From: Eubacterium sp.
Lineage (GTDB): Bacteria; Bacillota; Clostridia; Lachnospirales; Lachnospiraceae
Assembly (NCBI GenBank): GCA_017406925.1
Contig: JAFQXO010000013.1
Span: 1 to 49,773, forward strand
Reading direction: 5' to 3'
DNA length: 49,773 nt
How positions within the stretch are numbered: position 1 is the stretch's first letter; each line of letters begins with the position of its first letter. Made by a program: the position numbers and the translations under genes. The notes beneath the pieces were generated by a model. That model was not told the DNA's origin, searched no databases, and was given only the letters and a program-made list of their open reading frames with translations. This document shows, piece after piece, positions 23,829 to 49,773 of this stretch.

Positions 23829-23839
23829 AAGATCACCTC

Positions 23840-33645: not shown

Positions 33646-35715
33646 TTATTCGTCTTTTTTCTCGATGATTTCTACGTATCCACACTCTGGATCAGCACAT
33701 GCCAGTTTCTTTCCTTTCTCTACCATATAGCCTCCACACTCTGGACACTTCTCGGTAGATGGCTTTTGCCATGACATGAATTCGCAGTCTGGATTGTCGA
33801 TACATCCATAATATGTACGTCCCTTTCTAGTTCTTCTATAGACAACGTCTTTGCCACACTTAGGACAAGGAACGCCTACCTTTTCTAGATAAGGTTTCGT
33901 ATTTCTACAATCTGGGAAGCCTGGACATGCGAGGAACTTTCCGTATGGTCCATACTTGATAACCATTCTGCGTCCACACTCTTCGCAAATCTCATCTGAC
34001 TCCTCATCTGCTATCTCTATCTTTTCCAGTTCTTCCTCTGCAGTTTTAACCTGCTTTTCAAGATCTGGGTAGAAGTTTCTGATGATATCCTTCCACTGCA
34101 TCTTGCCGTTTTCAACGGCATCAAGGAGTGACTCCATATTGGCCGTGAATGATGGGTCAACTATCACAGAAAACATTTCTTTCATTACATTGTTTACAGC
34201 CTGACCAATCTCAGTCACATAAAGATTTTTCTTTTCCTTAGTCACATAGCGTCTAGCAATAATCGTACTAATCGTTGGCGCATATGTACTTGGACGTCCA
34301 ATGCCCTGCTCCTCTAATGCTTTTACCAATGCTGCCTCAGTAAAGTGTGCAGGTGGCTGTGTAAAGTGCTGGTTCTCTTCGAACTCTACAAAGTTTAGTT
34401 CATCGCCCTTCTCGAGTTTGGCAATCACCTTGTCGGTAGACACCTTCTCCTCTTTCTGAACATAGACTTTCATAAAACCGTCGAAGTCGACTTTAGAAGT
34501 AGCTGCTCTAAACTCATACTCTCCGGCAGTAATTCTCGCATTGATAGTTTCATACTTCGCATTGTCCATACGACTTGCGAGGAATCTCTTCCATATAAGT
34601 TGATAAAGTCTGAACTGATCTCTCGAGAGCTGGCTCTTCACCTCGTCAGGTGTGATGTTCACATCTGTAGGTCTGATGGCTTCGTGCGCATCCTGGATCT
34701 TCTTAGAAGAAGACTTCTTTCCTGCGCCCTTCGCCAAATACTGTTCGCCATAGTTCTCCTCGATGAAAGCCTTCGCCTGAGCTGCAGCTGTATCTGATAC
34801 ACGAGTCGAATCAGTTCTTAAATATGTAATAAGACCAACTGTACCACGCTTTTTCAAATCCACACCTTCGTATAGTTGCTGCGCAATACGCATAGTCTTC
34901 TGTGTCGAAAAATTAAGAGCCTTTGATGCTTCCTGCTGCATTGTGGATGTTGTAAAAGGGAGTGGCGCTTTGCGAGTTCTACTTCCGTGTTTCACAGTAG
35001 ATACACTAAAATCACTGCCCTTTAACTCCTCAATGATTTCATCGAGCTGCTCTTTTCCTGTAATTTCAACTTTTCCATTTTTATCGCCGTAAAAACTAGC
35101 CTTAAAATCTTTCTTGCCATTGTTTAATACGACATCCATATCCCAATATTCCTGTGGAATAAATGAGTCTATCTCTTCTTCTCTGTCGCATACCATCTTC
35201 AACGCAACTGACTGAACGCGACCTGCTGATAGGCCTCGCTTAATCTTTTGCCAAAGCAATGGACTGATAGAATACCCCACAACTCTGTCGAGCACACGTC
35301 TTGCCTGCTGCGCATCTACGAGATCCATATCTATCTCTTTTGGATTCTTAAGTGATTCCTTGATAGCATCCTTAGTAATCTCATTGAATGTAATGCGGTA
35401 TGTGGTCTTTGGATCTAACTTCATAGCATTAAATAGATGCCATGATATAGCTTCACCTTCGCGGTCAGGGTCGGTAGCGAGATACACTTTCTTCGCTTTC
35501 TTCGCATGACGCTTAAGTTCAGCCAGTTTCTCACCCTTACCACGGATAGTAATATATTTAGGCTCGTAGTCGTTCTCAACGTCCACGCCCATCGTGCTTT
35601 TAGGAAGATCGCGAACGTGACCATTTGATGCAATCACATCATAATTCTTTCCCAAAAACTTTTTAATCGTTTTAACTTTTGTTGGTGACTCCACTATTAC
35701 AAGATTATTTGTCAT
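33646..35715 (-). CDS. topA: DNA topoisomerase I
   Basis: This type IA topoisomerase relaxes negative supercoils. I start it at 35715 (MTNNLVIVESPTK), where AAGGGG lies 8 bases upstream; the open frame extends 9 codons further without a ribosome site. It has 689 residues. The Toprim domain (VIVESPTK, DPDREGEAISWH) and the active-site Tyr region (GLITYLRTDSTR) are visible. Three C-terminal four-Cys zinc ribbons follow (CEECGRR, CPKCGKD, CPECGGY). A consensus promoter stands upstream. Confidence 0.98.
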   Translation of the reverse strand: MTNNLVIVESPTKVKTIKKFLGKNYDVIASNGHVRDLPKSTMGVDVENDYEPKYITIRGKGEKLAELKRHAKKAKKVYLATDPDREGEAISWHLFNAMKLDPKTTYRITFNEITKDAIKESLKNPKEIDMDLVDAQQARRVLDRVVGYSISPLLWQKIKRGLSAGRVQSVALKMVCDREEEIDSFIPQEYWDMDVVLNNGKKDFKASFYGDKNGKVEITGKEQLDEIIEELKGSDFSVSTVKHGSRTRKAPLPFTTSTMQQEASKALNFSTQKTMRIAQQLYEGVDLKKRGTVGLITYLRTDSTRVSDTAAAQAKAFIEENYGEQYLAKGAGKKSSSKKIQDAHEAIRPTDVNITPDEVKSQLSRDQFRLYQLIWKRFLASRMDNAKYETINARITAGEYEFRAATSKVDFDGFMKVYVQKEEKVSTDKVIAKLEKGDELNFVEFEENQHFTQPPAHFTEAALVKALEEQGIGRPSTYAPTISTIIARRYVTKEKKNLYVTEIGQAVNNVMKEMFSVIVDPSFTANMESLLDAVENGKMQWKDIIRNFYPDLEKQVKTAEEELEKIEIADEESDEICEECGRRMVIKYGPYGKFLACPGFPDCRNTKPYLEKVGVPCPKCGKDVVYRRTRKGRTYYGCIDNPDCEFMSWQKPSTEKCPECGGYMVEKGKKLACADPECGYVEIIEKKDE

Positions 35716-35774
35716 AATGTTTCCCCTTTTAAATTTTCGCAAAAGATAAGCGAATTTTGTTGTAAACGTAAAAC

Positions 35775-35804
35775 ACTATACAACAGATAAAAAACTTTTG
35801 TCAA
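35775..35804 (-). promoter_or_regulatory. Strong promoter of topA
   Basis: On the minus strand a perfect TTGACA, an 18-base spacer and TATAGT, about 60 bases upstream of the topA start. Confidence 0.85.
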
Positions 35805-35875
35805 GAAAAATGTCTTTTTCATACACACCTCTTAGTCCAATTATTATAATCAAATTTTTTCCATTATTTTATTTG

Positions 35876-36043
35876 TTATTTATCGAAACTTTTAAAATTT
35901 ATGGCTTCCGCCAAATAGTTTTTCGAAATCTGCTCATCTGCAAACATCTCGCTCTGTGCAGTTACATCGATTCCTGTCTGGATAGTAACCGTATTTACAA
36001 CGGTTCCCTCCAACGTACGTATAAATATCTTGTTATAAAAAAT
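35876..36043 (-). pseudogene. Possible gene remnant, C-terminal fragment
   Basis: The gap between topA and the kinase gene (35743-36163) has one protein-like open frame of 55 codons. It reads like folded protein (TVVNTVTIQTGIDVTAQSEM, then FADEQISKNYLAEAINF) and ends in TAA. It has no ATG or GTG near its 5' end and no ribosome site, and it begins just after a terminator hairpin. It is most simply the tail of a lost gene. Chance is possible. The rest of the gap holds only the topA promoter and two hairpins. Confidence 0.3.
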
Positions 36044-36069
36044 TTAAAGGGTGTGCAAAATGCACACCC
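36040..36069 (-). terminator. Second terminator hairpin downstream of the kinase gene
   Basis: GGGTGTGC and GCACACCC form a perfect 8-base stem, followed on the minus strand by TTTAAATTTTTT. Confidence 0.6.
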
Positions 36070-36092
36070 CTATTTTATATGTAGAAACTCAT

Positions 36093-36118
36093 AAAAATGA
36101 GCATTCGTAGATGCTCAT
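36093..36118 (-). terminator. Terminator of the P-loop kinase gene
   Basis: ATGAGCAT and ATGCTCAT pair with a 6-base loop, followed on the minus strand by TTTT. It lies 45 bases past the stop of the kinase gene, 24 bases before the second hairpin. Confidence 0.7.
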
Positions 36119-36163
36119 TTCTACACGCTATTATGTTTTCACTGGCTCACAAACTGGAATTTA

Positions 36164-36673
36164 TCAGTTCACTTTCAAAATATACGAAGCTATAAGTTCT
36201 GCCGTTTCTTCCTCTGCCTTCTCTGTGTTATCTATAAACAACTGGAACTTAGACTTATTTCTTCTGAACCATCCGTTATATTCAATATGCGGTCTTATTA
36301 TTTCATCAGAAGTAAACCCTCTCTCGGCCGGTCTTGCTTTAAGTCTTTGTTCAATAACATCATCACTTGGGCATAATGCAATCCAATGTGTTGTCTCAAT
36401 TTCCTCTGGTACATCTATTTTTTGAAAGTAATCTATTGGATTCAGACAGCTTACATAAATCAGATTCTTTCCTTCTGCCATTTTCGTAGCACATCTCAAA
36501 GTATCTTCATTATATTTTGATTCATTTTCAGTTCCGGCATAATCCCACCAGTTCAGACCAACCTCGTCACCATCAACAGGCACATACAGTTCATTTGTTA
36601 ACCTTTTTGATAAATAATCCTTCATTGTTGATTTTCCAGCTCCGCAGGTTCCTGTTATAACAAATAATTTCAC
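36164..36673 (-). CDS. P-loop nucleoside/nucleotide kinase-like protein
   Basis: The 169-residue protein starts with a Walker A motif, TGTCGAGKST (about 7-16), in the position expected for adenylate-kinase-like and AAA_18/AAA_33 kinases. A lid-like Arg-rich segment (EQRLKARPAERGF) follows near residue 113. The substrate cannot be named. The start is GTG, with AGGAGG seven bases upstream. It has its own terminators. It marks the left part of the accessory region. Confidence 0.8.
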   Translation of the reverse strand: MKLFVITGTCGAGKSTMKDYLSKRLTNELYVPVDGDEVGLNWWDYAGTENESKYNEDTLRCATKMAEGKNLIYVSCLNPIDYFQKIDVPEEIETTHWIALCPSDDVIEQRLKARPAERGFTSDEIIRPHIEYNGWFRRNKSKFQLFIDNTEKAEEETAELIASYILKVN

Positions 36674-36729
36674 CTTGTTACCTCCTGTTTCATATTCATA
36701 AACTTGAATTTATTTTTCATCAAAAAACT

Positions 36730-36819
36730 CTATTTCTTCTCCCAGCGGTCCAAAGCAAAATGCTTTTCAATCTTTTCACTTATGTACTCACTACCTATTG
36801 ATCCAAAATCATCAAACAT
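36730..36819 (-). CDS. Short ORF of 29 residues, unknown
   Basis: The ATG at 36819 is preceded by GAAAGGA, nine bases upstream. The peptide begins MFDDFGSIGSEYISEK and ends in Lys-Lys. It lies behind a TATAAT box and upstream of the kinase gene, so it may be a leader peptide or the relic of a longer gene. No family is recognised. Confidence 0.35.
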   Translation of the reverse strand: MFDDFGSIGSEYISEKIEKHFALDRWEKK

Positions 36820-36856
36820 AACTTATATCCTTTCTTCTCTTTACCTTATGGTATTA

Positions 36857-36884
36857 ATTATAACAAAACAACTGTCCTTTCAAA
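36857..36884 (-). promoter_or_regulatory. Candidate promoter for the short ORF and kinase gene
   Basis: On the minus strand TATAAT is preceded by TTTGAA at 16 bases. The -35 sits in the loop of a perfect hairpin (AACTGTCC/GGACAGTT, 36870-36893) that may act as terminator for the 217-residue gene upstream. Confidence 0.45.
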
Positions 36885-36988
36885 GGGACAGTTGCATTTT
36901 TATTACACCTATTAATATTCATTTTTTGAAAACTATATCTTTATATTTAATCGTTCAGCTATTCTTTGTTTGTTTTACTAATTTTTCT

Positions 36989-37642
36989 TTACCACCAATT
37001 ATTTTTGCCAAATACATTAACATCGTCTGGATAATATTTTTTAGATAACAATTGCATACTTGTAACAATAGAGTCAATCTGTTTTAAATTATCATCTCCG
37101 TCTGGATATGCTAAACTATATTTCGCAATATTTCTTGTTTTCTCAAAAAGTTCTAAAACACATCTAATAACCTTTAGATGAGCAAAAGATTTTTCTTTAG
37201 TAAACCAAAATAGATTAAACGCAACAAGATCAAACTTATTCTTAGCATCTTCAATATCTTCATAAAATCTTTTTACACCATTACTATTAAGTATGCCCTC
37301 TGAATCCATCTGTAATTTAAATAGTCTTGTCAATAAAAAGACATTTGAATAAAACTCTTGAAACAACTCATTCCTTATCTTTTGAAACTGCAAAATACTT
37401 GTCACAATCACAACTACCATACTACAAAAGATTCCTACCAAAAAGTCTATTAAAAGCGGAAATATAGACACTTGTTTTTTATTTATGAATAATATCGTTG
37501 ACAACACAACACAAATAATACTTATCCAAAATCCAATTGATATTATTCTTTGGTACATAGCTAAAGTGCTACTTTGCTTTGAAGGAATCATACATTTCTT
37601 AAAAGCATATATTTTTTTACTGTCAATCATCTTTTTTATCAA
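36989..37642 (-). CDS. Two-helix membrane protein, partner of the DUF4365-like gene
   Basis: The 217-residue protein has two membrane helices (about 33-53 and 59-84) and a C-terminal, mostly helical cytoplasmic part. The start is TTG, with AGGAGG eight bases upstream; the next ATG, 12 bases on, would be too far from that site. It follows the 587-residue gene by 28 bases and probably forms a two-gene unit with it. Nuclease plus membrane protein is an arrangement known from several anti-phage systems, where the membrane part acts as effector; that role here is inference. Confidence 0.75.
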   Translation of the reverse strand: MIKKMIDSKKIYAFKKCMIPSKQSSTLAMYQRIISIGFWISIICVVLSTILFINKKQVSIFPLLIDFLVGIFCSMVVVIVTSILQFQKIRNELFQEFYSNVFLLTRLFKLQMDSEGILNSNGVKRFYEDIEDAKNKFDLVAFNLFWFTKEKSFAHLKVIRCVLELFEKTRNIAKYSLAYPDGDDNLKQIDSIVTSMQLLSKKYYPDDVNVFGKNNWW

Positions 37643-37670
37643 TATCTACTCCTCCTTCGTTCACTTATAA

Positions 37671-39434
37671 TCATATTTCCCTAAATAATCGAAATATTGG
37701 ATATTTTTCATATCTTTCTTTTTCCTCTGTCGAAAACTCTTCAAAACACTCCTGTGCTTTGATTCTATCTTCTAATAACACATTCTTCCCGAATCCTATG
37801 TATATATCCTTTTCCTCTATTCTTTCAATTATTTCTGCATCCGACTCTGATAATTCCCCTCTTCTTTTTTTAATTTGCATTTTGTTTAAGACCAAATAAT
37901 CCTCATCTTTCAATATCATTAATTCGTCAACAAGATTATCAGCATAATCTAAGAATTTGTTATCATTAGTAATATCATAAACATTAATCATTTTTAATGC
38001 TGCACCCAAAACAAAATCAAATGTTTTATCGTTACACTCCATCAATTCTATTTGTTTTTCGAATTCATCATAATTATACTCATATAAATTCGAAAGAATA
38101 CTTTCGTGAAGATGCATAAAAGCAGGCACTCTATAAATTTTATTATCTTCACCACTATCATTTGAATTAGATATTCCAATAACTCTTTTTTTAGGATATG
38201 CAGCGTTTTCCAATAACACTTTTTCTTTATCTTTAATTACAAATAGTGGAACCTTTTTACCGTCATAATTCCAAATGATTGTGCTAATACCTTCAGGAAT
38301 AGTTTTATCACTATTCCCTCTTTTATAATTAAGCAAAGCAAAAATGTCGTTTTTTTGCTTTTGACTAAGATCTGAGTAAGCACTATCTATTTCCACACCA
38401 ATCATTTCTAATGTTTCATATAAATCAACTATATAGTCCAATTTTTGTTTAAAATCACTATTTTCTTCAATCGTGCCCAAATCAACTACAGTCCCATTAA
38501 TCTTCATTTTCTTTCCATCAATCAACGACAACAAAAATCTAGCATCATTATATAATTGTTTAATTGTTGTTTTGTACTCAAATAAAATTCTAGATTTTTT
38601 GAACTCTATAATCAAATTTTCACTTATTCTAACCGTTGAAAGAATACCCGCTTCTTCTATTGTTTCATAACTATTATAATAATCTTCTCCATCAACAGAT
38701 ATTGTTTGTTTAACATCACGTCCTAATGCAAAAAAACTATTTTGATTAAGTTGAATAGGTCTAGGATATTTATCATCTTTTTCTTTTCCATACAAACAAA
38801 TAGATCTATCAGACAATCCTTTTACTATATCAGACATGCTTCTATTTCCATAAACCTCAAAATTCATTTCCTTCAGGTCCTTAATGTCTGTTATATTTAT
38901 CCTGTCTTTAACTAGAGGAGTATGCACCGAACCTTGTTTTGATGCTTCAAGATTGAATTGTTTGGCAAGTTTATATAAATCGTCTGGATTCCCCTCTAAT
39001 CTATAAAATGGTATATGTATGCTTTTTTGATTGCCGCATCTTTCTATGTATTCCAATACTAACGAAGGATATAATGAAGCGTAAAAAATCTGTCCATTCC
39101 CTTTTCCATCCGTATATACAATAAAGTATACCCCACCTTTTTCACTACCAAATCCATTTAAATCACATAAGTCGACTTTGTGACTAATTTTAGTTTTATC
39201 AAAATAACTATGCTCTTGATCATCATGTCCCTTGATTTGCACGGGTATTCTAGCCTCAAAATTTCTCTTTGAAACATCTCCAGTATCATTTTTTGGCAAA
39301 ATAATATAACCATCCCATATTTCATGTGTATCATCTTCATTAAACGAATGGTCCATAGTATTGTGCTGACTTATTATTCTTCTAAGATAATCTACCGCTC
39401 TTTTACCTATTTTTTTACTGGAAACATCACTCAT
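37671..39434 (-). CDS. DUF4365-like nuclease candidate with helical C-terminus
   Basis: I start at 39434 (MSDVSSKK), with GGAG ten bases upstream. The open frame extends 22 codons into the mazG-like gene with Arg-rich, unlikely sequence. The protein has 587 residues. Residues 5-170 match the DUF4365 pattern of PD-(D/E)XK-like folds: WDGYI near 40-44 and VQIKG at 65-69, a plausible D41...Q66-x-K68 site. The middle part (about 180-430) is unrecognised. The end (about 450-587) is helical and TPR-like. DUF4365 proteins are often found in defence islands. It is followed by a membrane protein gene. Confidence 0.75.
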   Translation of the reverse strand: MSDVSSKKIGKRAVDYLRRIISQHNTMDHSFNEDDTHEIWDGYIILPKNDTGDVSKRNFEARIPVQIKGHDDQEHSYFDKTKISHKVDLCDLNGFGSEKGGVYFIVYTDGKGNGQIFYASLYPSLVLEYIERCGNQKSIHIPFYRLEGNPDDLYKLAKQFNLEASKQGSVHTPLVKDRINITDIKDLKEMNFEVYGNRSMSDIVKGLSDRSICLYGKEKDDKYPRPIQLNQNSFFALGRDVKQTISVDGEDYYNSYETIEEAGILSTVRISENLIIEFKKSRILFEYKTTIKQLYNDARFLLSLIDGKKMKINGTVVDLGTIEENSDFKQKLDYIVDLYETLEMIGVEIDSAYSDLSQKQKNDIFALLNYKRGNSDKTIPEGISTIIWNYDGKKVPLFVIKDKEKVLLENAAYPKKRVIGISNSNDSGEDNKIYRVPAFMHLHESILSNLYEYNYDEFEKQIELMECNDKTFDFVLGAALKMINVYDITNDNKFLDYADNLVDELMILKDEDYLVLNKMQIKKRRGELSESDAEIIERIEEKDIYIGFGKNVLLEDRIKAQECFEEFSTEEKERYEKYPIFRLFREI

Positions 39435-39438
39435 ATCA

Positions 39439-39720
39439 TTAAAACTCCGCATACTTCTTCGCATTCCCCTTAGCATCCTCCACCGGATACTTCTTCTCAT
39501 TCATCTCCATCTTGTCATTCACTATCTGATCCACATCCAACTCAAGAACATCCAACATATCCTGGCAGTAAACTATCACATCAGCTAGTTCTTCTATCAC
39601 ATGCTCTCTGTCATAGTTTTCTTCATCCCATTGGAAGCACTCCAATAACTCATTAGCCTCAATCGAAATCGACTTCGCCAAATTAGCTGGAGAATGGAAT
39701 TGCTTAGGGGTGTGCTTCTT
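39439..39720 (-). pseudogene. MazG-like nucleotide pyrophosphohydrolase, N-terminally truncated
   Basis: The frame encodes KQFHSPANLAKSISIEANE, then LLECFQW and EELADVIVYC. This is the core of a MazG-like (RS21-C6 type) NTP pyrophosphohydrolase with its metal-binding ELLE and EELAD motifs. Family members begin 15-25 residues earlier with a helix containing RDW. Here an in-frame TAA at 39721 cuts that off, and no ATG or ribosome site precedes the conserved part. A TTG at 39681 gives 80 residues but lies within the conserved block. The stop is 4 bases before the next start. The break may mark an island junction. Confidence 0.65.
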
Positions 39721-39724
39721 TTAT

Positions 39725-39752
39725 ATTGTAACATATGTGGGTTGAGTTTAAA
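39725..39752 (-). promoter_or_regulatory. Candidate promoter just upstream of the mazG fragment
   Basis: On the minus strand TTTAAA, a 16-base spacer and TACAAT. It would drive the truncated mazG and the two genes behind it. The surrounding 39.73-39.85 kb stretch is unusually G/T-rich on the plus strand. Confidence 0.35.
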
Positions 39753-39848
39753 TTATGTTTTTGAAATGCTATTTGGGGTGATGTGTGGGATTGTGTGAGA
39801 GGTGCCTGCGGCAAAATATGTGCGGGGATGGGTGTGGGTGTCAGGGAC

Positions 39849-39875
39849 AAAAAGCGCCTGCAGCAAAGCAGGCGC
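39849..39875 (-). terminator. Terminator of the four-gene YaaC/HEPN operon
   Basis: GCGCCTGC and GCAGGCGC form a perfect 8-base stem with a 6-base loop, followed by five U on the minus strand, 45 bases past the stop at 39921. Confidence 0.88.
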
Positions 39876-39920
39876 AAGTAACAGAATACTCTAATACATA
39901 CTAAATAATGTGCCAAACAA

Positions 39921-40601
39921 CTATTTATTTCTTTTTGGAGGTCTATCTTTAAACAAAAACAGTTCCGATATCATTATCAACAGAATTTCATATAGCTTTT
40001 TGATATCGTCATCGCGATATTCTACAATTCCATTATGTAAAATATTGTGCCTAAAAGGAATTCTTTTATCAATGCTCTCTTTAAAATCTCTAGTATTAGC
40101 ATATACAATCTTCGCTATACCAAACATTATGACGGCTGAAATACTATCAGATCCTATTTTCATATCCTTCTCAGTTAATTTACCTATGTCTTTTTTTATA
40201 CCATTTTTTGTCTTTGTCACTTTTGCGGTTTCATATAGTACCTTTTCAAAATGCAAAAGCAACACAGACACTTTTTCTCTAACATTTATTCTTTTATTAT
40301 TAATAATGTGTTTTATATATTTATCCGTGTCAGATTGTGCCTTATAATCCCTAATGTAATTTAATGCTTTTCTCTTGGTTTTATAGTCGAAGTTATCTAA
40401 ATAATCTACAACTTCATTGTACTTAATATCATAACCAAAATCTTCGGTTTTTTGACAAAGAATGCTATCCTTTATTATTCCAGGTAGAGCAAATTCAATT
40501 AGCATTATTATCCACATAAAGTCTTCATCAATAGTAAAACCATTCTTTTTGAACCGCTCTATAACACCACTTTTATTTAATCTATCCATTAAATTATTCA
40601 C
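39921..40601 (-). CDS. HEPN-like protein, last gene of the operon
   Basis: The 226-residue, mostly helical protein has FRHNILHNG at 183-191, an R-x4-H arrangement (R184, H189) like the catalytic motif of HEPN ribonucleases. The N-terminal half is rich in Lys and Asp with helices and no other motif. The start is GTG, with GAGGA seven bases upstream. It lies 32 bases behind the 74-residue gene. HEPN RNases are common toxins and abortive-infection effectors, so this is the most likely effector of the operon; that is inference from a short motif. Confidence 0.7.
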   Translation of the reverse strand: MNNLMDRLNKSGVIERFKKNGFTIDEDFMWIIMLIEFALPGIIKDSILCQKTEDFGYDIKYNEVVDYLDNFDYKTKRKALNYIRDYKAQSDTDKYIKHIINNKRINVREKVSVLLLHFEKVLYETAKVTKTKNGIKKDIGKLTEKDMKIGSDSISAVIMFGIAKIVYANTRDFKESIDKRIPFRHNILHNGIVEYRDDDIKKLYEILLIMISELFLFKDRPPKRNK

Positions 40602-40633
40602 TTTTAATTCCTCTATATTTCTTTCAGATTTCT

Positions 40634-40858
40634 CTATTCCACAAACACTTCTATACTATCTCTCTGACAGCCTGGATACTTATCCAAAAACATATTTAAA
40701 TATGGAGTTGCAGCTTCTATACTATATTCAAAATCATCAGCAACTTCATATTCTTCTGATATCCAACCTTCTAGGGCAGTTATCCCTTCTTCATCATGCA
40801 AATGTTTTTCTTTAAAGTTTATTATTGCTTCATTACCTTTAATAATTATCTTTTTCAT
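40634..40858 (-). CDS. Small acidic protein, unknown
   Basis: The 74-residue protein is acidic (many Glu and Asp), with alternating strands and helices and no known motif. AAAGGA precedes the ATG. Placed just before the HEPN-like gene, it could be its antitoxin or inhibitor, as HEPN toxins are often paired with a small upstream partner. The spacing (27 and 32 bases to its neighbours) supports one transcript. Confidence 0.6.
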   Translation of the reverse strand: MKKIIIKGNEAIINFKEKHLHDEEGITALEGWISEEYEVADDFEYSIEAATPYLNMFLDKYPGCQRDSIEVFVE

Positions 40859-40885
40859 ATTATTCCTTTCTTTGAAACTATCATT

Positions 40886-41956
40886 TCACTTATTTAGCAT
40901 CTCACTAGATAATATACTTTCAACTATTTGACTAATGTTGATCAATTCATCATTTAACACAGTTATAGAATACTTTGAGGTGTCGCCCATTTCACGATTA
41001 AAACTAATTGTTGATTGAAGAATAAAACCAAATTCATGTATCTTTCTGTCGTTAGATAACTCACAATCCAATAATGCTACTTCTCCAATTCCTCCGCTTG
41101 CCGAAGTTGAGAATCCACCTTGAACTAGAACTTTATAAAACTCACCAATACAATTGCTCTGATTTGTTTCTATATTAATTAAATTATTATTATCTATTAT
41201 AATTAACCTCATTCCACAAATTGCTTCGTACAATAGTTGACATGCCACTGACAAAGAAAATCTTAAAGCATATAGTATTATTATTGTTCCGAAAACTCTT
41301 CCTCCATTACCAATACTACCATCACTGATATTTTTCCATAATACTTCGATATTTGAATTAGTTGGATCAAAATAATCCTTACTAATAGATTTTTCAAGAC
41401 TACCAACAATCATACGTAAGTTATTTACATCATTTTTTTCTACTTCTTTTAATATATTTGAATTATAAAAAGATTTATACACTTCGCTCCCTCTAAAAGA
41501 AGTAGCTATTTTTTCTATATCCTCATCTGATAATAGCATTTCACTATTAGTATCATATTCTACTTCTTTCAACAAAGAATAAGGATTCATAACGTTACCA
41601 ATGTTAGGTGATTTAAGTGTTATTTCTTCTAAACATTTTTTCACAACGGCCATAATGGTACCATGACATATTTCAAATAATTTTCTATCCTCATTAGATA
41701 GTTTTTCCACCGCAAAAGGTGGTTGACTGTTGATACTTTCTACATTGTCATCAACAAATAAATATCCATGGAATTGACTACCGAACTGTCTTGCTACCAT
41801 AGCAAAATCGCCATTCATCTTATTTGTAATTGATTTTGTGTTTTGATTATCACTAATCGTGTTTAATTTATTTAACAATTCCTGTATTTTCTCTATTTTT
41901 TCATTTTTTTGAAGTTTTTTGCAAGCATCAAAAACTTCACTCCTAAATGTACTCAT
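40886..41956 (-). CDS. Unknown 356-residue protein of the YaaC/HEPN operon
   Basis: I do not recognise this protein. It is full length with a clear ATG. The N-terminal 45 residues are charged and helical. The centre has FRGSEVYKSFYNSNIL and a Gly-rich stretch, SIGNGGRVFGT, followed by a hydrophobic helix (about 223-246, LYALRFSLSVACQLLYEAI) that could be buried rather than membrane-spanning. The end has strands with a Gly-rich turn (GFSTSASGGIGEV). It lies 18 bases behind the YaaC-like gene and probably works with it. Confidence 0.7.
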   Translation of the reverse strand: MSTFRSEVFDACKKLQKNEKIEKIQELLNKLNTISDNQNTKSITNKMNGDFAMVARQFGSQFHGYLFVDDNVESINSQPPFAVEKLSNEDRKLFEICHGTIMAVVKKCLEEITLKSPNIGNVMNPYSLLKEVEYDTNSEMLLSDEDIEKIATSFRGSEVYKSFYNSNILKEVEKNDVNNLRMIVGSLEKSISKDYFDPTNSNIEVLWKNISDGSIGNGGRVFGTIIILYALRFSLSVACQLLYEAICGMRLIIIDNNNLINIETNQSNCIGEFYKVLVQGGFSTSASGGIGEVALLDCELSNDRKIHEFGFILQSTISFNREMGDTSKYSITVLNDELINISQIVESILSSEMLNK

Positions 41957-41974
41957 TATACTCTCTCCTCTAAC

Positions 41975-43090
41975 CTACTTTCTTATACTTTTAATAATAT
42001 CTTCAGATGTTAATTGTTTCTTGATTTCTCCTCCAACTATGTCTTTTATTTGATGCTCACCAATCGGTTTTATTGTGTCTGTTGATTTATACTTTTCAGG
42101 AATATATGTTAATCTGGTATTCATCAAATTATTCAATACAATATTCGGAATCATTCTCTTGGCATAATAAATGAACTTTTCTATTAATAGTTTTTCTCCC
42201 GACCCATCTTTCAAAACAAATGATCCCCACTTCTCAGGATGATATCTACATAAAGAAGCTAACACAAATAAAGAAATGTACATATTTAATTCTGTTGATA
42301 AACTGATTCCTTTTCCATTTTTTGTATAGTCTGATCTTAAATACGGTTGTCCTGAGAATGACATCTCACTAATATCCTTCCCATTAATCTTATGTCTCAA
42401 AATAAAGTATGACCTATTATCTGCCAAGGAACGACCTTCTGTTCTGTTTAAGTAAGAATCGTCAAAACCATCCACTTGGTTTAATGTATCGTTAACACGT
42501 TTTTTCTCACTCTCACTTGAATAATATACTTTTTCAATTTTTCCTTCAGGAGTATTGAAAACATCTAAAAACACTATTTTACTTGAATCACCATAACAGC
42601 TTTCAAAATCACCAGCTATTTCAGCAATGGCCCCAAACAATTCTTTTAAGTTCCATTCTCCATATTTGCATAAATCTTTATTCATATCTAAGGCTCTTGC
42701 GAATACATGCACTCCTCCTTTTTCAGCATTATTAAACCATAATTTTGTATCTGCAATGCATTCTGAATCTTCTGGGTCTATTCTCATCCCATGTGTTTCG
42801 ACTATACATTTTTCACCTGAAAGAAGGTTTGTCATTCCATAGAGAAGATTAGTTGATCCATAATACAATAACAATGGTGATATATGAAGGTTCGCAACAT
42901 TTGCTGATTTAAAGTATTCATGCGCTTGAAGAAACGAACCAGTTATACTATTGATTAATTCACTATCTGGTTCCACATTTCTTTTTGCAAAATATTTTTT
43001 TATGTTTTCCTCATAAGTAAACTGCTCTAATTCTCTCCAAATATCACTTTCTGGGTTTTCTGAATATAGAGTTTTAACATTCATGTCCAT
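41975..43090 (-). CDS. YaaC-like protein, first gene of the operon
   Basis: I start at 43090 (MDMNVKT), with AGAGG seven bases upstream; an earlier ATG six codons before lacks such a site. The protein has 371 residues. The N-terminal part resembles the YaaC family: W..L..F near 18-24, then AHEYF, and the hallmark SPLLLYYGSTNLLYG at 71-85. Biochemical function of YaaC proteins is unknown. Accessory relatives occur next to defence genes. A promoter at 43206-43233 precedes it. Confidence 0.75.
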   Translation of the reverse strand: MDMNVKTLYSENPESDIWRELEQFTYEENIKKYFAKRNVEPDSELINSITGSFLQAHEYFKSANVANLHISPLLLYYGSTNLLYGMTNLLSGEKCIVETHGMRIDPEDSECIADTKLWFNNAEKGGVHVFARALDMNKDLCKYGEWNLKELFGAIAEIAGDFESCYGDSSKIVFLDVFNTPEGKIEKVYYSSESEKKRVNDTLNQVDGFDDSYLNRTEGRSLADNRSYFILRHKINGKDISEMSFSGQPYLRSDYTKNGKGISLSTELNMYISLFVLASLCRYHPEKWGSFVLKDGSGEKLLIEKFIYYAKRMIPNIVLNNLMNTRLTYIPEKYKSTDTIKPIGEHQIKDIVGGEIKKQLTSEDIIKSIRK

Positions 43091-43205
43091 ACTAGTACCT
43101 CTTCTCATTTTTTATTAATATCTGACTAAATTCCATTTAATTTAAATATTGTGGCTCATAGGTTGTTAAAATTATTCGTTATATTTATGCATCTTTTACC
43201 CATTA

Positions 43206-43233
43206 TTTATATTTTTCAGTATAACACAAGCAA
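43206..43233 (-). promoter_or_regulatory. Promoter of the YaaC/HEPN operon
   Basis: On the minus strand TTGCTT, a 16-base spacer and TATAAA, in the 174-base gap after the AlbA_2 gene. The long gap indicates a separate transcription unit. Confidence 0.5.
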
Positions 43234-43264
43234 TACTGCTAATATTAGTCATTAAGCCATCTAA

Positions 43265-44419
43265 TTATTGATTAATCCTATATTCATTCAATATTCTTTG
43301 CATTACTTGCACAGTTTTATATTGATCTATCATATAATCGTAATTCAACTCCTTGTTAGGTAAATGTGGTTGAGGAATACCTTCAAGTATTTCTTCATAT
43401 GTATCATCCCAAACATCTTGAACATACTTTTCAAATAATTCTTTTTCTTTTTCGCTTTCAAAAACTAGAACTTCATTAAAAAATACATCATGCGCCCAAC
43501 ATTCTTCTATATCAGTTTCATCAAAGAAAAAAGTATTTAAAGAATTGTTCAAATCGTCTTTAATCATATAAGCATATAGTAACTCACGGTTCCCAAATTT
43601 TATCAATTCCAACTCTGGAACAACAGCAAAATATCTTCCACCATCTAAGCAAACAGCAAGAGTTTGCATCAATACTGTTTGTTTATACTTAATATAAACA
43701 CTTGCCCAACTAATACTGTTCATATCTATTTGATTAAGCATATAATACTCATAACCGTCTCTAAACTTTTCACTTTCAAAATCAGTCTCAATGGTAAACT
43801 CAGGAAACGGTTTGTAATGCATTATCTCATTATAAAATCCACTTTGTTTCCAATTATCCTTATCTTCCAAATAAGTCTTGCACCTTTCAAGCGGTGATAA
43901 TAACATTCCAAATCTCTTCTTCCATAATAATTCAACATGGTGAATATCAGCAGAAGAGTCACTCGGAGTGTTTGTGTCTTGCACTCTAGTATAAATGTTG
44001 TTTGGTCTTACTTTTCCAGATTTTTTCTTTAAATAATATGGAGTATCATTTGTATTATGTATAACTATAACATCAAGTGCACTGTTCTCTATTAACACCG
44101 TTTCGACTGTAACTGTTGGTCTTTTATCTCCTGCAAATTGTTTTGTTCTTAAAAAAGACACAACATTTTCTGTTGTTCTTCGTTCTTCATCATTTGATAT
44201 ATCAATCAATTTAAAATCGTTTTCTTCGTCCACACCAATGATAATATATGCATCTCTATTGGCTAGATTGTTAGACATACAGATAATATCGTGTAACATA
44301 TCATCTTTCTTGTCTTTGCCATACCATTGACGCTTAAAGTCCCAGTATTCACCTTCTTGTTTTAGCTCTATCAACTCTTTTATTTTTTCTGATAGTTTAT
44401 TTGTTTTATTATCTGACAT
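43265..44419 (-). CDS. AlbA_2 (Schlafen-like) domain protein
   Basis: I start at 44419 (MSDNKTNKL), with GGAG eight bases upstream; the open frame begins 12 codons earlier but overlaps the preceding gene without a ribosome site. The protein has 384 residues. Residues about 12-165 form an AlbA_2/Schlafen-AAA_4 fold: EYWDFKRQWYG, then MSNNLANRDAYIIIGVDE, and a Pro/Tyr-rich segment with YTRVQDTNTPSD. The C-terminal half is unrecognised. Such domains bind nucleic acid or nucleotide and recur in defence islands, some as nucleases. It is the last gene of a three-gene unit. Confidence 0.8.
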   Translation of the reverse strand: MSDNKTNKLSEKIKELIELKQEGEYWDFKRQWYGKDKKDDMLHDIICMSNNLANRDAYIIIGVDEENDFKLIDISNDEERRTTENVVSFLRTKQFAGDKRPTVTVETVLIENSALDVIVIHNTNDTPYYLKKKSGKVRPNNIYTRVQDTNTPSDSSADIHHVELLWKKRFGMLLSPLERCKTYLEDKDNWKQSGFYNEIMHYKPFPEFTIETDFESEKFRDGYEYYMLNQIDMNSISWASVYIKYKQTVLMQTLAVCLDGGRYFAVVPELELIKFGNRELLYAYMIKDDLNNSLNTFFFDETDIEECWAHDVFFNEVLVFESEKEKELFEKYVQDVWDDTYEEILEGIPQPHLPNKELNYDYMIDQYKTVQVMQRILNEYRINQ

Positions 44420-44445
44420 TATTCTTACTCCAACTATTACATAGA

Positions 44446-44934
44446 TTATTGCCATGTTTGTATTTCTTCATTCGTATATTCCTTTCCATCTTCATCTTGC
44501 CATTTTGTGATTACTTTGTATTTGTTTTCACTTACTATGTAAATTCCAATAGGCTCCTCAAAACCCGCTTCAGGTTCTAACTTTTCAAATGGAGTTATTT
44601 CCTTTGTTAATTGTATTTGATATTCCTCTGGAATGTCATAATCAACATTATATGCAGGAGCTGAACCAGAATTATAGATTTTGATTTTGTATTTTCTTCC
44701 GTAAACATTAACAATCCTAGCTTTTACACAAGCCTCTTTCGTCTTACTCTTTTCTGATTCAATTTTTTCAACTTCGTGTTTTTTTATTTGTAAATCATAT
44801 TCTTTGAGTTTTTCTTCTATTTTTGATACTTTTCTTGATTTTACAAACGCCACTACCGACAATATAAATGCAGAAATCGGAATAAAATATGACACAATCA
44901 CTTTTAATATTTCTAAAAAAGCTTTCATCTCCAT
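44446..44934 (-). CDS. Single-pass membrane protein with coiled coil and beta domain
   Basis: The 162-residue protein has a membrane helix at about 9-31, then a charged coiled coil (about 35-68, KLKEYDLQIKKHEVEKIES), then a beta-rich domain with NSGSAPAYNVDYDI. This architecture is frequent as an accessory gene beside Schlafen-like or nuclease genes. It lies 11 bases behind the zinc-ribbon gene and 26 before the AlbA_2 gene. Confidence 0.75.
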   Translation of the reverse strand: MEMKAFLEILKVIVSYFIPISAFILSVVAFVKSRKVSKIEEKLKEYDLQIKKHEVEKIESEKSKTKEACVKARIVNVYGRKYKIKIYNSGSAPAYNVDYDIPEEYQIQLTKEITPFEKLEPEAGFEEPIGIYIVSENKYKVITKWQDEDGKEYTNEEIQTWQ

Positions 44935-44945
44935 AAACCTTCAAT

Positions 44946-45203
44946 TTACTTAAGTGCTTTTTCTATTTCTTTTACTACTTCAGATGTAAATTCATTTTCC
45001 ATGTCTTCAATGTTTGCGTTTATTCTATCCTCGTTTTCATCAATCAACTCTTTTTTGGTAATAATTCTCCCACAATCAGAACACTTTAATTCCGCATACT
45101 CTGGTACATTATTCACATCTTTGTATTTTGGATCTACAGCCTCAAAATTATCGTTCCCGCATGCTTTACAAAGCATGGTAATACTTCTACTAATATCTTT
45201 CAT
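44946..45203 (-). CDS. Small zinc-ribbon protein
   Basis: I start at 45203 (MKDISRSITM), with AGGAG eight to nine bases upstream; the open frame upstream adds 18 basic residues without a ribosome site. The 85-residue protein has two CxxC pairs (C12/C15 and C41/C44), a zinc ribbon, followed by an acidic helix. It could bind nucleic acid or a protein partner. It is the first gene of the zinc-ribbon, membrane protein, AlbA_2 unit. Confidence 0.75.
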   Translation of the reverse strand: MKDISRSITMLCKACGNDNFEAVDPKYKDVNNVPEYAELKCSDCGRIITKKELIDENEDRINANIEDMENEFTSEVVKEIEKALK

Positions 45204-45276
45204 TTTATATCTCCTTTTTTTAATAAACATTTTTAGTTTGCTAATACTAAATAGCATTGCAATTATTCTTTATTAA

Positions 45277-45298
45277 GGGCTTCCCCAAGAAGAAGCCC
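45277..45298 (-). terminator. Hairpin after the 40-residue gene
   Basis: GGGCTTC and GAAGCCC form a 7-base stem 11 bases past the stop. The following bases on the minus strand are TTAATAAAG, a weak U tract. Confidence 0.45.
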
Positions 45299-45309
45299 CA
45301 CATAATTAT

Positions 45310-45432
45310 TTAGTGCATCTCGTGCTTATGTTTTGCTAGCACTTTTGCAGCTTCAGACTTTGCTTTTTTAGAAGCATTTTTATCTTTCAAAGTCCTCGCC
45401 GCTTTTTTAAGTCTAATACTTGTATGTCGCAT
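45310..45432 (-). CDS. Small basic protein of 40 residues
   Basis: The ATG at 45432 has a strong ribosome site, AGGGAGGTGAAG. The peptide begins MRHTSIRLKKAARTL, continues KDKNASKKAKSEAAKVL, and ends in a His/Lys-rich tail, so it is a basic, mostly helical chain. Its layout (HTS near the start, then A..L, AS..AKS.A) recalls a family of short proteins of unknown function on plasmids and islands; this is from memory and needs a search. A candidate RNA is encoded divergently next to it. Confidence 0.7.
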   Translation of the reverse strand: MRHTSIRLKKAARTLKDKNASKKAKSEAAKVLAKHKHEMH

Positions 45433-45469
45433 TTGCTTCACCTCCCTGTTGAGTATTTAGAAGCAAACA

Positions 45470-45586
45470 CACAGCAAAACTGTTTGCAAAATGCAACAGT
45501 TTGAGTTAGACTTATCTTGCGTGGGTAGTCTAATGCTATGCATTTGCTATCTATATGAACAGCCAAGATTTCTTGGCTGTTTTTTA
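45470..45586 (+). ncRNA. Candidate structured RNA ending in a plus-strand terminator
   Basis: Three stems follow one another: AAACTGTT(T)GC with GCAACAGTTT (45477-45502), TTAGACT with AGTCTAA (45506-45533), and a perfect 11-base terminator stem (AACAGCCAAGA/TCTTGGCTGTT, 45558-45581) with a U run on the plus strand only. No plus-strand protein gene lies upstream for that terminator to serve. The minus side of the stem lacks a U tract, so it does not serve the converging gene. No convincing promoter was found. The alternative is that the first two stems are leader structure of the 40-residue gene. Confidence 0.45.
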
Positions 45587-46645
45587 ATAGTTTTTTATCC
45601 ACTCAATATAATCCTTCTTACTAATTTTTTTCTTGTCATATTTTTCTCTCATCATCGCAATATTCTTTTTGTACTCATCAAAATCCTGCTGATACTTCTC
45701 ATTATCTGGATGACGCTTTTTTCTCATCAACAACGACATATACTTTTTTCTATATTCTCTTGTTAATTCATCCTCTTTTTCTTTCTTAATTCTACTCAAC
45801 TGAGCCCCTATTTCTTTGCATGTTTTACCAGTTGTCTGAGGCGATTCATATCCACAATATTTCGTATCGTTACGTCCACTAGGAACAAAATATTTCCCGC
45901 AGTTTTTGCATTTTACGAGAGTAGCACCATATTCAAGCATATTTGATAATTCAAAAATGAACAAAGACAGCGGTGTTCGAGGCGTATAAATAGGTTTAAG
46001 CCCTCCTTTTAAAGAAGCAATATTATAATCAATATGCTGCATACTTAAAAATTCAGCAAATAATTCAGATGGGAATTCGCTTAGTTTTTCATCATCGAAG
46101 TCAGCATTTCTTTCAAAAAAAGGTATGGCCCTTTCTGCTTCTTCTCTAGCCAATCCATAAAAAATAATATAGATTATATAAGCATTCATAATAATTTCAC
46201 CGATAGAATTATTATTTGTATTTTTAATACCTGAATCTTTTAATACATATTCTTTTACCTCATCATAATACTCAAATTGACTTCTGTACTCTTCCTCTAC
46301 CACTAATAACTCTTTTTCTTCAAGTCTAATAGTACTATCTATTATTGAAACCATTGACCCAATAAGCATTAGCACTGGTACTGGTGGATAGTGATTCAGC
46401 AGTTTCATTTTTATCCAATCCATAGATTCGAACAATTTCTTCTCACTATACTTTTCTTTAAAATAAGGAGTTCTAATAATAGTACTTTTGAATTCTATTG
46501 GTTTATTGCGAATATATTCACAATAAATACCACCAATATCATACTCTATTTCTTTCTCGCCTTTATCTATTATTGTATAGGTCAATAAATCTTGAATTAT
46601 AGGTAATCCTTTATGTAATATAATTTTTCCTTTTTTATTATCCAT
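45584..46645 (-). CDS. DUF6076-like protein with Cys zinc knuckle
   Basis: The C-terminal third contains VKCKNCGKYFVPSGRNDTKYC (about 240-260 from this start), a zinc-knuckle pattern seen in DUF6076 proteins of Lachnospiraceae, followed by a Lys/Glu-rich helical tail. The rest is an alpha/beta region without a known motif. The frame is open to an ATG at 46720, but a consensus promoter (46652-46680) lies inside that extension. I prefer 46645 (MDNKKGK), which would be nearly leaderless; neither ATG has a normal ribosome site. From 46645 it has 353 residues. Function is unknown. Confidence 0.7.
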   Translation of the reverse strand: MDNKKGKIILHKGLPIIQDLLTYTIIDKGEKEIEYDIGGIYCEYIRNKPIEFKSTIIRTPYFKEKYSEKKLFESMDWIKMKLLNHYPPVPVLMLIGSMVSIIDSTIRLEEKELLVVEEEYRSQFEYYDEVKEYVLKDSGIKNTNNNSIGEIIMNAYIIYIIFYGLAREEAERAIPFFERNADFDDEKLSEFPSELFAEFLSMQHIDYNIASLKGGLKPIYTPRTPLSLFIFELSNMLEYGATLVKCKNCGKYFVPSGRNDTKYCGYESPQTTGKTCKEIGAQLSRIKKEKEDELTREYRKKYMSLLMRKKRHPDNEKYQQDFDEYKKNIAMMREKYDKKKISKKDYIEWIKNY

Positions 46646-46651
46646 GCCCTT

Positions 46652-46680
46652 ATCATACAACACAAAACCACTTATGTCAA
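46652..46680 (-). promoter_or_regulatory. Near-consensus promoter of the DUF6076-like gene
   Basis: On the minus strand a perfect TTGACA, a 17-base spacer and TATGAT. Transcription would begin at about 46645, the ATG of the preferred start. A weaker pair (TTGTCT, 18 bases, TATACT) lies at 46757-46786 and would fit the earlier ATG. Confidence 0.6.
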
Positions 46681-46706
46681 CAATAGATATTCTAAAATAT
46701 CTATTG
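46681..46706. repeat. Perfect 11-base inverted repeat next to the -35
   Basis: CAATAGATATT and AATATCTATTG are exact inverted copies separated by CTAA, directly adjoining the TTGACA at 46675-46680. This is the layout of an operator. A further perfect palindrome, TTATCAATTGATAA, lies at 46728-46741. Confidence 0.7.
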
Positions 46707-46756
46707 CTAACAAATGCCATGGTATTATTATCAATTGATAACAGGAAACCATCTTA

Positions 46757-46786
46757 AGTATAAAATGAGCTTCGAATATTAGACAA
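46757..46786 (-). promoter_or_regulatory. Second, weaker promoter candidate for the DUF6076-like gene
   Basis: On the minus strand TTGTCT, an 18-base spacer and TATACT, about 37 bases upstream of the alternative ATG at 46720. If used, the protein would carry 25 more residues. Confidence 0.35.
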
Positions 46787-46909
46787 AGATCTAAGTGTTT
46801 GAGCCTCTATTCATCATGCCTGCTTTTTATAATTATCTTTGCCATACTATGTACTACTTATTGGACACTACATTATTATAAAAAATATATATGAACAATA
46901 ATATTAATA

Positions 46910-46938
46910 TTGCTTTTATTCGTTTGTTCGTATATATT
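46910..46938 (+). promoter_or_regulatory. Promoter of the DNA methyltransferase gene
   Basis: TTGCTT, a 17-base spacer and TATATT, leaving a leader of only about 15 bases before the ATG at 46961, which contains the ribosome site AAGGAGG. Confidence 0.6.
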
Positions 46939-46960
46939 ATGTATTATGAAGGAGGAAAAA

Positions 46961-49129
46961 ATGGATTATATTTCAGTTAGAGATGCTTCAATTAAATTTG
47001 GATTATCAGAACGAAGAATCCAGAAACTGTGTGAGGATAATAGAATTAACGGATGCATAATGGTTAGTGGAGTATGGCTTATTCCCTCTTCAGCAAAAAA
47101 ACCGGCTGATGAGAGAATCTCTGATATTCCAAAAAAACCAACTAATCTTACTCTCAAACAGTTTTGTGATTATTTGTCAATATCCGAAGCAACAGGCCGC
47201 AACTGGATTAGATTAAATAAAATTAAACCTAATTTGACTGCAACAGGTACGCCTTACTTTGATAAACAATATGCAAAAACTATAAAAAGAGAAATTAAAA
47301 CTGGTGAGAATTCAGCTTTAAAAAGTAGAAGAAACAAAAAATACATATCAGGGAATTCCCTATACAATTCATACGTTTCTTCGGATAACAAGAATCTTAG
47401 TAAAGTACAAAAATTATTATCCATATCGCAAGAGTATAAAATTAAATTCAATTCAAATAACATTGGTTACTTAATAGCCGATTGTGCTTTGCATTTATTT
47501 GCAAGTAAAAACAAACAAGAGTACAATAATGACTCTAATTTATTAGCTAAATACTTAAATAAAGATATTCAATTGAATTCATACAAAGAACTCGTTGAGG
47601 ATTTAATTGATAATAATAAATCAGCCATTCAATTCTGCAAAGAATATCCCCTACTTTTTAAAAACAATTACTCCTATGAGCCCAAAGAAGATATTCTTGG
47701 ATTGATTTATATTTCTTTTAAAAACCTTGATAAAAGAAAGGCCACAGGAGTCTACTACACTCCTACCACAATAGTAAAAAAACTAATATCTCAACTAAAT
47801 GTCAAAAAAAAGGATACTATACTTGATCCTTGTTGCGGAACTGGTAATTTTCTGCTTCAGCTACCAAATGATATTCCACTAAAAAATGTTTATGGTGGAG
47901 ATACTGATTCATTGAGCGTGAAAATAGCACGAGTTAATATGGCTTTGAGATTCAAAAATGCTGACCCTAACACTATCAAAGAACATATTTCTGAAAAGAA
48001 TTATCTTCTTAATAAACTCGATATGTCATTTGATTATATCATTGGGAATCCACCTTGGGGATATGATTTTTCTAAAGAAGACAATAAAATATTACGAGAA
48101 ATGTATAGATCTACCACCAGAAAAAAAATAGAATCGTATGATGTCTTTGTTGAGAAAGCTTTGAGCGATTTGTCATCAAATGGGCAATTATCTTTTGTTC
48201 TTCCCGAAGCCATTTTAAATGTAAAAGCCCATGAAGATATCAGGAAAATAATTATGGATGGACATTCCATTAAGTATCTAGAATATTTGGGAAATGCTTT
48301 TGACGGTGTTCAGTGTCCTAGTGTAATACTTCAACTCGTTCATACCGGAAAGCCATTTTCGTCAATCGGAACAACGGTCAACAAATCTGGTGTTACTATT
48401 ACCATAGAAACTGAAAGAGATATTACCTCTGAACGTTTTAGTTTTTTATCTACAGATAGTGAATATAAATTATTAAAAAAAATAAGAAACCAGAAAAAAG
48501 TAGTACACTTAGCAGATAATGCTGATTTCGCACTGGGAATTGTAACAGGTAACAATAAGAAATATATACGCAATACAAAAACAAAAAATAATGAAATGGT
48601 TCTTAAAGGCTCTGATATACGCAAGTTCCACTTCAACTCATCTGATAATTATATTGTTTTTGAACCAGATAAGTTCCAACAAGTTGCACCAACAGAGTTG
48701 TACAGAGCGCCAGAAAAACTATTATACAAGTTCATTAGCAGCCAGTTAGTATTTGCATATGATAATAAGCAAACACTATCATTAAATAGCTGCAATGTGC
48801 TCATTCCTAAAATAAAAGAATTGGATATAAAATATGTATTGGCAGTTCTAAATTCCAGTGTTGCACAATTTATTTTTAAAAAAGAGTTTAATTCATTTAA
48901 GGTATTAAGATCTCATATCGAGAGCATTCCTATACCGTTAATAAGCAAAAGCAAACAAAAAGAAATAATTATGTTAGTCAATCCACTAATAAAAGGTTTG
49001 GATGAAGAAGAAGCTATCGATACATATAAAAAACTTGATCAGAAAATATACGAACTGTTTAACATTAACAAAAATCAGCAAGACATAATTTACAAAGCCT
49101 TAGAAAATGAAAAGAATAATCTAATATAA
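46961..49129 (+). CDS. Type II N6-adenine DNA methyltransferase with N-terminal HTH domains
   Basis: The only clear plus-strand gene encodes 722 residues. The start at 46961 has AAGGAGG six bases upstream. Residues 1-50 are a MerR/excisionase-like helix-turn-helix (SVRDASIKFGLSERRIQKLC); a second HTH-like segment follows (LKQFCDYLSISEATGRNW). The methylase core starts near TGVYYTP, with the SAM motif DPCCGTGNF at 289-297 and catalytic NPPW at 363-366 (gamma-type N6-adenine). The C-terminal part is TaqI-like target recognition (FALGIVTGNNKKYI, then KGSDI). No nuclease motif is seen in it. It converges on a restriction-enzyme candidate. The HTH may allow autoregulation. Confidence 0.92.
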   Translation: MDYISVRDASIKFGLSERRIQKLCEDNRINGCIMVSGVWLIPSSAKKPADERISDIPKKPTNLTLKQFCDYLSISEATGRNWIRLNKIKPNLTATGTPYFDKQYAKTIKREIKTGENSALKSRRNKKYISGNSLYNSYVSSDNKNLSKVQKLLSISQEYKIKFNSNNIGYLIADCALHLFASKNKQEYNNDSNLLAKYLNKDIQLNSYKELVEDLIDNNKSAIQFCKEYPLLFKNNYSYEPKEDILGLIYISFKNLDKRKATGVYYTPTTIVKKLISQLNVKKKDTILDPCCGTGNFLLQLPNDIPLKNVYGGDTDSLSVKIARVNMALRFKNADPNTIKEHISEKNYLLNKLDMSFDYIIGNPPWGYDFSKEDNKILREMYRSTTRKKIESYDVFVEKALSDLSSNGQLSFVLPEAILNVKAHEDIRKIIMDGHSIKYLEYLGNAFDGVQCPSVILQLVHTGKPFSSIGTTVNKSGVTITIETERDITSERFSFLSTDSEYKLLKKIRNQKKVVHLADNADFALGIVTGNNKKYIRNTKTKNNEMVLKGSDIRKFHFNSSDNYIVFEPDKFQQVAPTELYRAPEKLLYKFISSQLVFAYDNKQTLSLNSCNVLIPKIKELDIKYVLAVLNSSVAQFIFKKEFNSFKVLRSHIESIPIPLISKSKQKEIIMLVNPLIKGLDEEEAIDTYKKLDQKIYELFNINKNQQDIIYKALENEKNNLI

Positions 49130-49156
49130 AAAAGCACCTTTTTAGGTGCTTTTTTA
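49128..49156. terminator. Bidirectional terminator between the convergent R-M genes
   Basis: AAGCACC and GGTGCTT form the stem, with A and U runs on both sides, so it can stop transcription from both strands. Confidence 0.9.
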
Positions 49157-49162
49157 TTTCAA

Positions 49163-49717: not shown

Positions 49718-49736
49718 AATTCAACCCTCCCATAAA

Positions 49737-49773
49737 TCAATTATACTCGTCCTCTTCATCTTCTTCAAGTCGC
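49737..49773 (-). CDS. C-terminal end of an upstream gene, very acidic
   Basis: The last 37 bases hold an open frame reading RLEEDEEDEYN then TGA on the minus strand, 19 bases before the restriction-enzyme start. It looks like the acidic tail of a gene continuing beyond the window and perhaps co-transcribed. The stretch is very short. Confidence 0.4.
   Translation of the reverse strand, partial: RLEEDEEDEYN

Follow-up and report, generated by a model that had tools for sequence, protein, structure and literature searches.

To our knowledge, no activity has been established for any YaaC protein, and the yaaC gene of Bacillus subtilis is presumably without a partner of the type described below. 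That gene is listed next to guaB, with its function given as unknown, in the excerpted text of one published account (PMC11141002). Across the open-licence literature, no link between YaaC and defense was found by title or text among the matches listed, no mention of PF14175 or "YaaC-like" was found, and none was found of the SEC-C motif together with defense terms or CBASS. HEPN proteins commonly carry RHxxLH-like stretches. Their motif is defined as Rx4-6H, with N, D, or H typically following the arginine, in the excerpted text of a second account (PMC3710099). The locus considered here had been proposed, in a sequence-only reading, to be an undescribed defense system of four genes: a YaaC-like gene, a gene of no assigned family, a small acidic antitoxin-like gene, and a gene with a HEPN motif. 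Comparison of sequences from other genomes supports a two-gene module of the YaaC-like gene and the partner that follows it, for which a defense role is plausible, and does not support a four-gene defense system.

The Locus and Its Genomic Setting

The window, that is, the whole stretch of 49,773 nucleotides analyzed, is one entire contig of a host genome assembly that comprises 15 contigs and is 84% complete. Its left part encodes ribosomal protein S2, EF-Ts, DXP reductoisomerase, PolC, and a topoisomerase; GC content, about 0.40 up to 36 kb, is about 0.30 beyond it, and the low-GC island that holds the four genes adjoins this chromosomal rpsB-tsf-topA cluster. The island contains, besides the four genes, a protein whose DUF4365 match falls short of the cut-off, a MazG-like gene, an SLFN_AlbA_2 protein, a zinc-ribbon protein, DUF6076, and a type II methylase beside which lies a weaker restriction-enzyme match (3.2e-8); at the contig end, these last two probably constitute a type II restriction-modification system. 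To call this region a defense-type island, as had been done, is fair in view of the GC fall at 36 kb and the PADLOC matches to PDC-S50, MTase_II, and, more weakly, REase_II. Scans for tRNAs over the window and for Rfam families over 35700-49773 gave no hits. The features referred to in the text are:

39439-39681, small MazG-like gene (PF12643, E = 1.6e-16)
39854-39875, minus strand, intrinsic terminator of the unit (8-bp stem with 7 G-C, then TTTTT)
39921-40601, minus strand, last gene (226 aa, GTG start)
40035-40052, minus strand, codons of R184 to H189 (RHNILH) in the 226-aa gene
40634-40858, minus strand, small acidic gene (74 aa)
40886-41956, minus strand, partner gene (356 aa)
41975-43108, minus strand, YaaC-like gene (377 aa as listed)
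43265-44455, minus strand, SLFN_AlbA_2 protein (PDC-S50, PADLOC E = 3.2e-122), 156 bp upstream of the YaaC-like gene
46910-49717, N6 methylase with a TaqI specificity domain and an adjoining weaker REase_II match (PADLOC MTase_II, REase_II)

The MazG-like gene overlaps the start of a 609-aa gene, the one with the sub-cut-off DUF4365 match. Elsewhere in the window, at 21724-28414, two adjoining large proteins combine tyrosine-phosphatase-like and fibronectin III domains, with a ThiF-like gene next door.

The layout is as had been claimed, with four minus-strand genes separated by gaps of 18, 27, and 32 bases. The strong terminator said to follow them is likewise present, and it was the one site found by a terminator scan under a loose rule, for which 1.0 was expected in shuffles. 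The single promoter of the earlier reading did not hold up, promoter-like sites numbering 25 against 23.8 expected, which is chance level. Because the promoter scan was at chance and no terminator-like site was found in the scan between the YaaC-like and SLFN genes, the transcript may start further upstream, and the SLFN_AlbA_2 gene may lie on it together with the four genes. Third-codon GC is 0.20-0.26 in the four genes and agrees with that of two neighbors (0.24 and 0.25).

Shine-Dalgarno-like stretches precede the last three genes (by inspection). The start listed for the YaaC-like gene at 43108 is without a good ribosome site; since AGAAGAGG directly precedes an internal ATG at 43090 and the relatives begin near the matching place, a start at 43090 (371 aa) is likelier. 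In 500 mononucleotide shuffles of a 3.2-kb stretch, read in three frames, the longest stop-free run was 136 codons, so the frames of 226, 356, and 377 aa are not due to chance. Runs of at least 74 codons arose in 81 of the 500, and the 74-aa gene, its length being within that of chance, therefore rests on its ribosome site and its place.

The YaaC–Partner Pair in Other Genomes

The product of the first gene, earlier called YaaC-like, is a divergent member of PF14175, scoring well over the gathering threshold (E = 1.4e-30, 107.2 bits, cut-off 27); among solved structures it had no significant match (best E 0.25). The family is rare in this part of the tree: PF14175 was found in 2 of 250 family genomes, namely the host's own and that of Blautia sp. 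An81 (G271), both of which carry the YaaC–partner pair. The Blautia genome is placed in the family of the host, which is thus probably a member of the Lachnospiraceae. In 299 phylum genomes there were six matches, five of them over the cut-off, with one (L059) at E = 4.7e-4. A divergent YaaC of 21% identity in another locus (L056, 6694-14366) has among its neighbors an Hsp90/sacsin-like ATPase and a protein that weakly matches HerA/mad8; no partner gene was found within 16 kb of it.

The second gene had been left without a family, and this stands, as its product has no significant match in Pfam, NCBIfam, PADLOC, or PHROGs (best E 0.11). Searches with the window partner gave one match in 245 class genomes, which was the host's own, and four in 397 family genomes, the host's own included; plasmids, phages, and viral contigs gave none, and neither did a first scan of genome contigs. 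The first relative found was that of Blautia sp. An81, lying after a YaaC of 47% identity. A scan of genome contigs with two YaaC proteins then yielded five loci (L013-L017), of which three have an intact YaaC followed by the partner: L013 from Blautia (L003 and L057 being the same locus), L014 from an uncultured member of the Eubacteriales, and L015 from an Acetatifactor metagenome-assembled genome. Viral contigs scanned with the partner or YaaC alignment gave none. With the partner alignment (A4), a search of the phylum matched 387 of 398 genomes, swamped by the SEC-C tail described below; the best match listed outside the host's own genome covers only positions 325-390 of 391 and is therefore not taken as a full-length relative. 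A further candidate, L005, was rejected as a chance match (E = 6.7e-4 over 77 residues of a 228-aa lipoprotein-like ORF).

The partner directly follows YaaC in all four full-length copies of the clade that were found, the window included and two of the four being near-identical. The latter are those of L013/L057 and L014, two species-level genomes that share 3,098 bp at 99.8% identity, the pair included, with TnpV adjoining; the pair thus represents three lineages, the window among them. The near-identical 3.1-kb stretch and TnpV indicate recent transfer of the pair, mis-binning of one assembly aside. YaaC of the window is 45-47% identical to the copies in L015, L014, and L057, and L014 and L015 are 58% identical to each other; the corresponding values for the partner are about 30 and 42%, both genes diverging in step. 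In the remaining loci, YaaC is truncated at about residue 121 by recombinase-like sequence (L016, by inspection), only an N-terminal YaaC fragment of about 66 residues is present (L017), or a C-terminal partner remnant has an SspF-like gene (E = 7.9e-14) a few kb away (L004/L058). These three lend no support to the pairing, since each shows one gene of the pair only.

Conservation of the partner is strongest near its C-terminus, where HEFG and MGDTS are invariant in four aligned rows, two of them near-identical. A SEC-C motif (PF02810) forms the C-terminal end of both relatives tested, with E = 6.2e-7 in L003 and 2.5e-7 in L015; the window partner stops before that motif.

The sequence retrieved around L013, L014, L015, and L057 contained nothing related to the 74-aa or 226-aa protein. 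Beyond the partner, the contigs continue for 518 bp (L057), 674 bp (L014), and 308 bp (L015), and because this much sequence remains, a tail immediately downstream, arranged as it is in the window, would show at least in part: the 74-aa gene in all three loci and the beginning of the 226-aa gene in two. A tail farther off would lie beyond view. The expected co-occurrence of the four genes therefore failed in this comparison: neither tail gene appears in any of the three other pair loci over the 0.3-0.7 kb that remain.

Seven loci carry YaaC or the partner of this clade (the window, L013/L057, L014, L015, L016, L017, and L058), and four of these have a neighbor with a PADLOC match stronger than 1e-5, such neighbors making up three of nine scanned in the window, four of four in L016, the single one in L017, and one of three in L058. 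The neighbors were chosen by us, with none from L013/L057 or L014 and only a regulator from L015 (best match 5.9e-5), and the defense neighbors of the pair are thus an association, not an enrichment. The stretch 2-4790 of L016 is a defense island, with MTase_II, REase_II, T5orf172 (PDC-S57), and a kinase; the neighbor in L017 is an orphan-type methylase, which may be an ordinary one of its kind, and that in L058 is the SspF-like gene. By Pfam and inspection, the neighbors in L013/L057 and L014 are TnpV, a response-regulator fragment, and unknown or housekeeping-like ORFs.

The Tail Genes

Of the two tail proteins, that of 74 aa is acidic (pI 4.45), as had been stated, and that of 226 aa is basic (pI 9.32). 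The small protein resembles no antitoxin in sequence, and the earlier suggestion of one derives from its size and place, to which its charge may be added; on these grounds it is a candidate inhibitor of the 226-aa product. It matched nothing in Pfam, NCBIfam, or PADLOC, an MNT partner of the HEPN-MNT kind included, and relatives were found neither in plasmids, phages, and viral contigs nor in 12 other genomes and the pair loci.

For the 226-aa protein, plasmids, phages, and viral contigs contained no relatives, and 396 other family genomes gave six matches (L007-L012, E 0.0012 to 0.0094), all set aside as chance-like (L007 was inspected). Its 90 C-terminal residues, used as a query, gave E values of 0.4 or worse, and the best of these matches (H10, L061) is without the motif.

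The R-x4-H of the earlier reading is present as RHNILH, with H185 directly after R184 and H189 at the end, in agreement with the definition excerpted above (PMC3710099). A second R-x4-H, R180-H185, overlaps and precedes it. Shuffled versions of the protein contained any R-x4-H in 19.6% of cases and R[NDH]x3H in 3.5%; the latter pattern is also present in 2 of the 30 genes of the window. No HEPN profile or sequence was matched in Pfam, NCBIfam, PADLOC, PHROGs, or PDB, the best matches all being non-HEPN (E 0.055 in PHROGs, 0.086 for Pfam EHN, and 1.4 in PDB); profile searches can miss diverged HEPN domains. With regard to the HEPN fold, which is all-helical and has the motif at the end of helix 3 and an acidic residue upstream, a crude propensity calculation called 38% helix and 18% strand, with predicted helix on either side of the motif, and Ex3[KR] occurs at E15, E144, and E175. 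Of the HEPN claim, then, the motif with its expected polar residue stands and a significant family match is lacking; judged from the sequence, a true HEPN fold has about an even chance.

Interpretation

The explanation we prefer, tentatively and with slightly less than even confidence, is a rare mobile two-gene YaaC–partner module, presumed to act in phage defense, to which one lineage has added a putative inhibitor and a candidate HEPN-like RNase as a tail. The unit kept across loci is a divergent YaaC-like protein followed directly by a partner of about 356-400 aa, and it moves on mobile DNA among gut Clostridia, the pair or its remnants often lying near defense genes at the few loci available. 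YaaC and the partner would act jointly in defense against phages; in the relatives, the zinc site of SEC-C may help target recognition or bind another protein. In the window, where the partner is without SEC-C, the transcript has two additional orphan genes, which would act as inhibitor and effector. The acidic 74-aa protein would restrain the basic 226-aa candidate HEPN RNase until a YaaC–partner complex senses infection, upon which the 226-aa protein would be released, cut RNA, and stall the cell.

A dedicated system of all four genes, in which YaaC and the partner sense, the HEPN-like protein kills, and the acidic protein restrains, seems unlikely. The tight spacing and common terminator, the similar third-codon GC of the four, and the coincidence of the missing SEC-C with the extra genes are in its favor, and the two-gene relatives would then use another effector or carry the tail elsewhere; however, the tail is missing from what can be seen of all three other pair loci, and the family genomes offer only chance-like matches to the 226-aa gene. 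A bolder proposal, which we consider rather improbable, is a new defense system whose sensor core consists of the YaaC-like protein and a partner belonging to a new family, with an interchangeable end module, which would be the SEC-C tail in the other copies seen and, in this lineage, a separate inhibitor together with an RNase of a new HEPN-type family. No tail pair is seen at the other three loci, on contigs that run out within 0.7 kb, and this speaks for two independent neighbors on one transcript, namely the YaaC–partner module and a captured, unrelated toxin–antitoxin-like pair downstream. The contrast in charge between the tail proteins fits such a pair, and islands collect pairs of this kind, but no free-standing relative of a tail gene was found (for the 74-aa gene, in 12 other whole genomes), and we regard this possibility, too, as doubtful.

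Least probable in our view is that the pair has an accessory metabolic or regulatory function and merely travels on mobile DNA. The listing of B. subtilis yaaC beside guaB (PMC11141002, in excerpt) is compatible with such a role, as is the setting of the other three intact pairs amid mobile-element, regulator, housekeeping-like, or unknown ORFs (partly by inspection); against it stand the defense genes near the window copy and near the broken relatives, the sporadic occurrence of the pair, and the signs of recent transfer. A mobile YaaC clade with one partner near defense genes gives the YaaC family a role that can be tested. Should the tail prove to be a HEPN RNase accompanied by an inhibitor, it would represent a HEPN family that escaped detection by the profile libraries used.

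Comparison With Known Systems

The closest candidate by position is PDC-S50 (SLFN_AlbA_2), a strong PADLOC candidate on the same strand as the YaaC-like gene and directly upstream; it is a separate family, and the sequence retrieved for L013, L014, L015, and L057 includes no relative of it. HEPN toxins and HEPN-MNT pairs resemble the tail in the R-x4-H with a polar residue after R and in the small gene upstream, but differ in that no HEPN or MNT model matches the window proteins, and 74 aa is too short for an MNT domain. PADLOC proteins with SEC-C (E1-E2, E2 models, PDC-S12) have that tail in common with the partner's relatives, although the match is limited to a tail of about 30-45 residues, the body of the partner matches nothing, and the window copy is tail-less. 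As for the YaaC family itself (PF14175, with B. subtilis yaaC), the product of the first gene passes its curated cut-off, yet the clade is set apart by scores of only E 1e-28 to 1e-32, compared with about 1e-102 in two other phylum genomes and 7.6e-64 in one.
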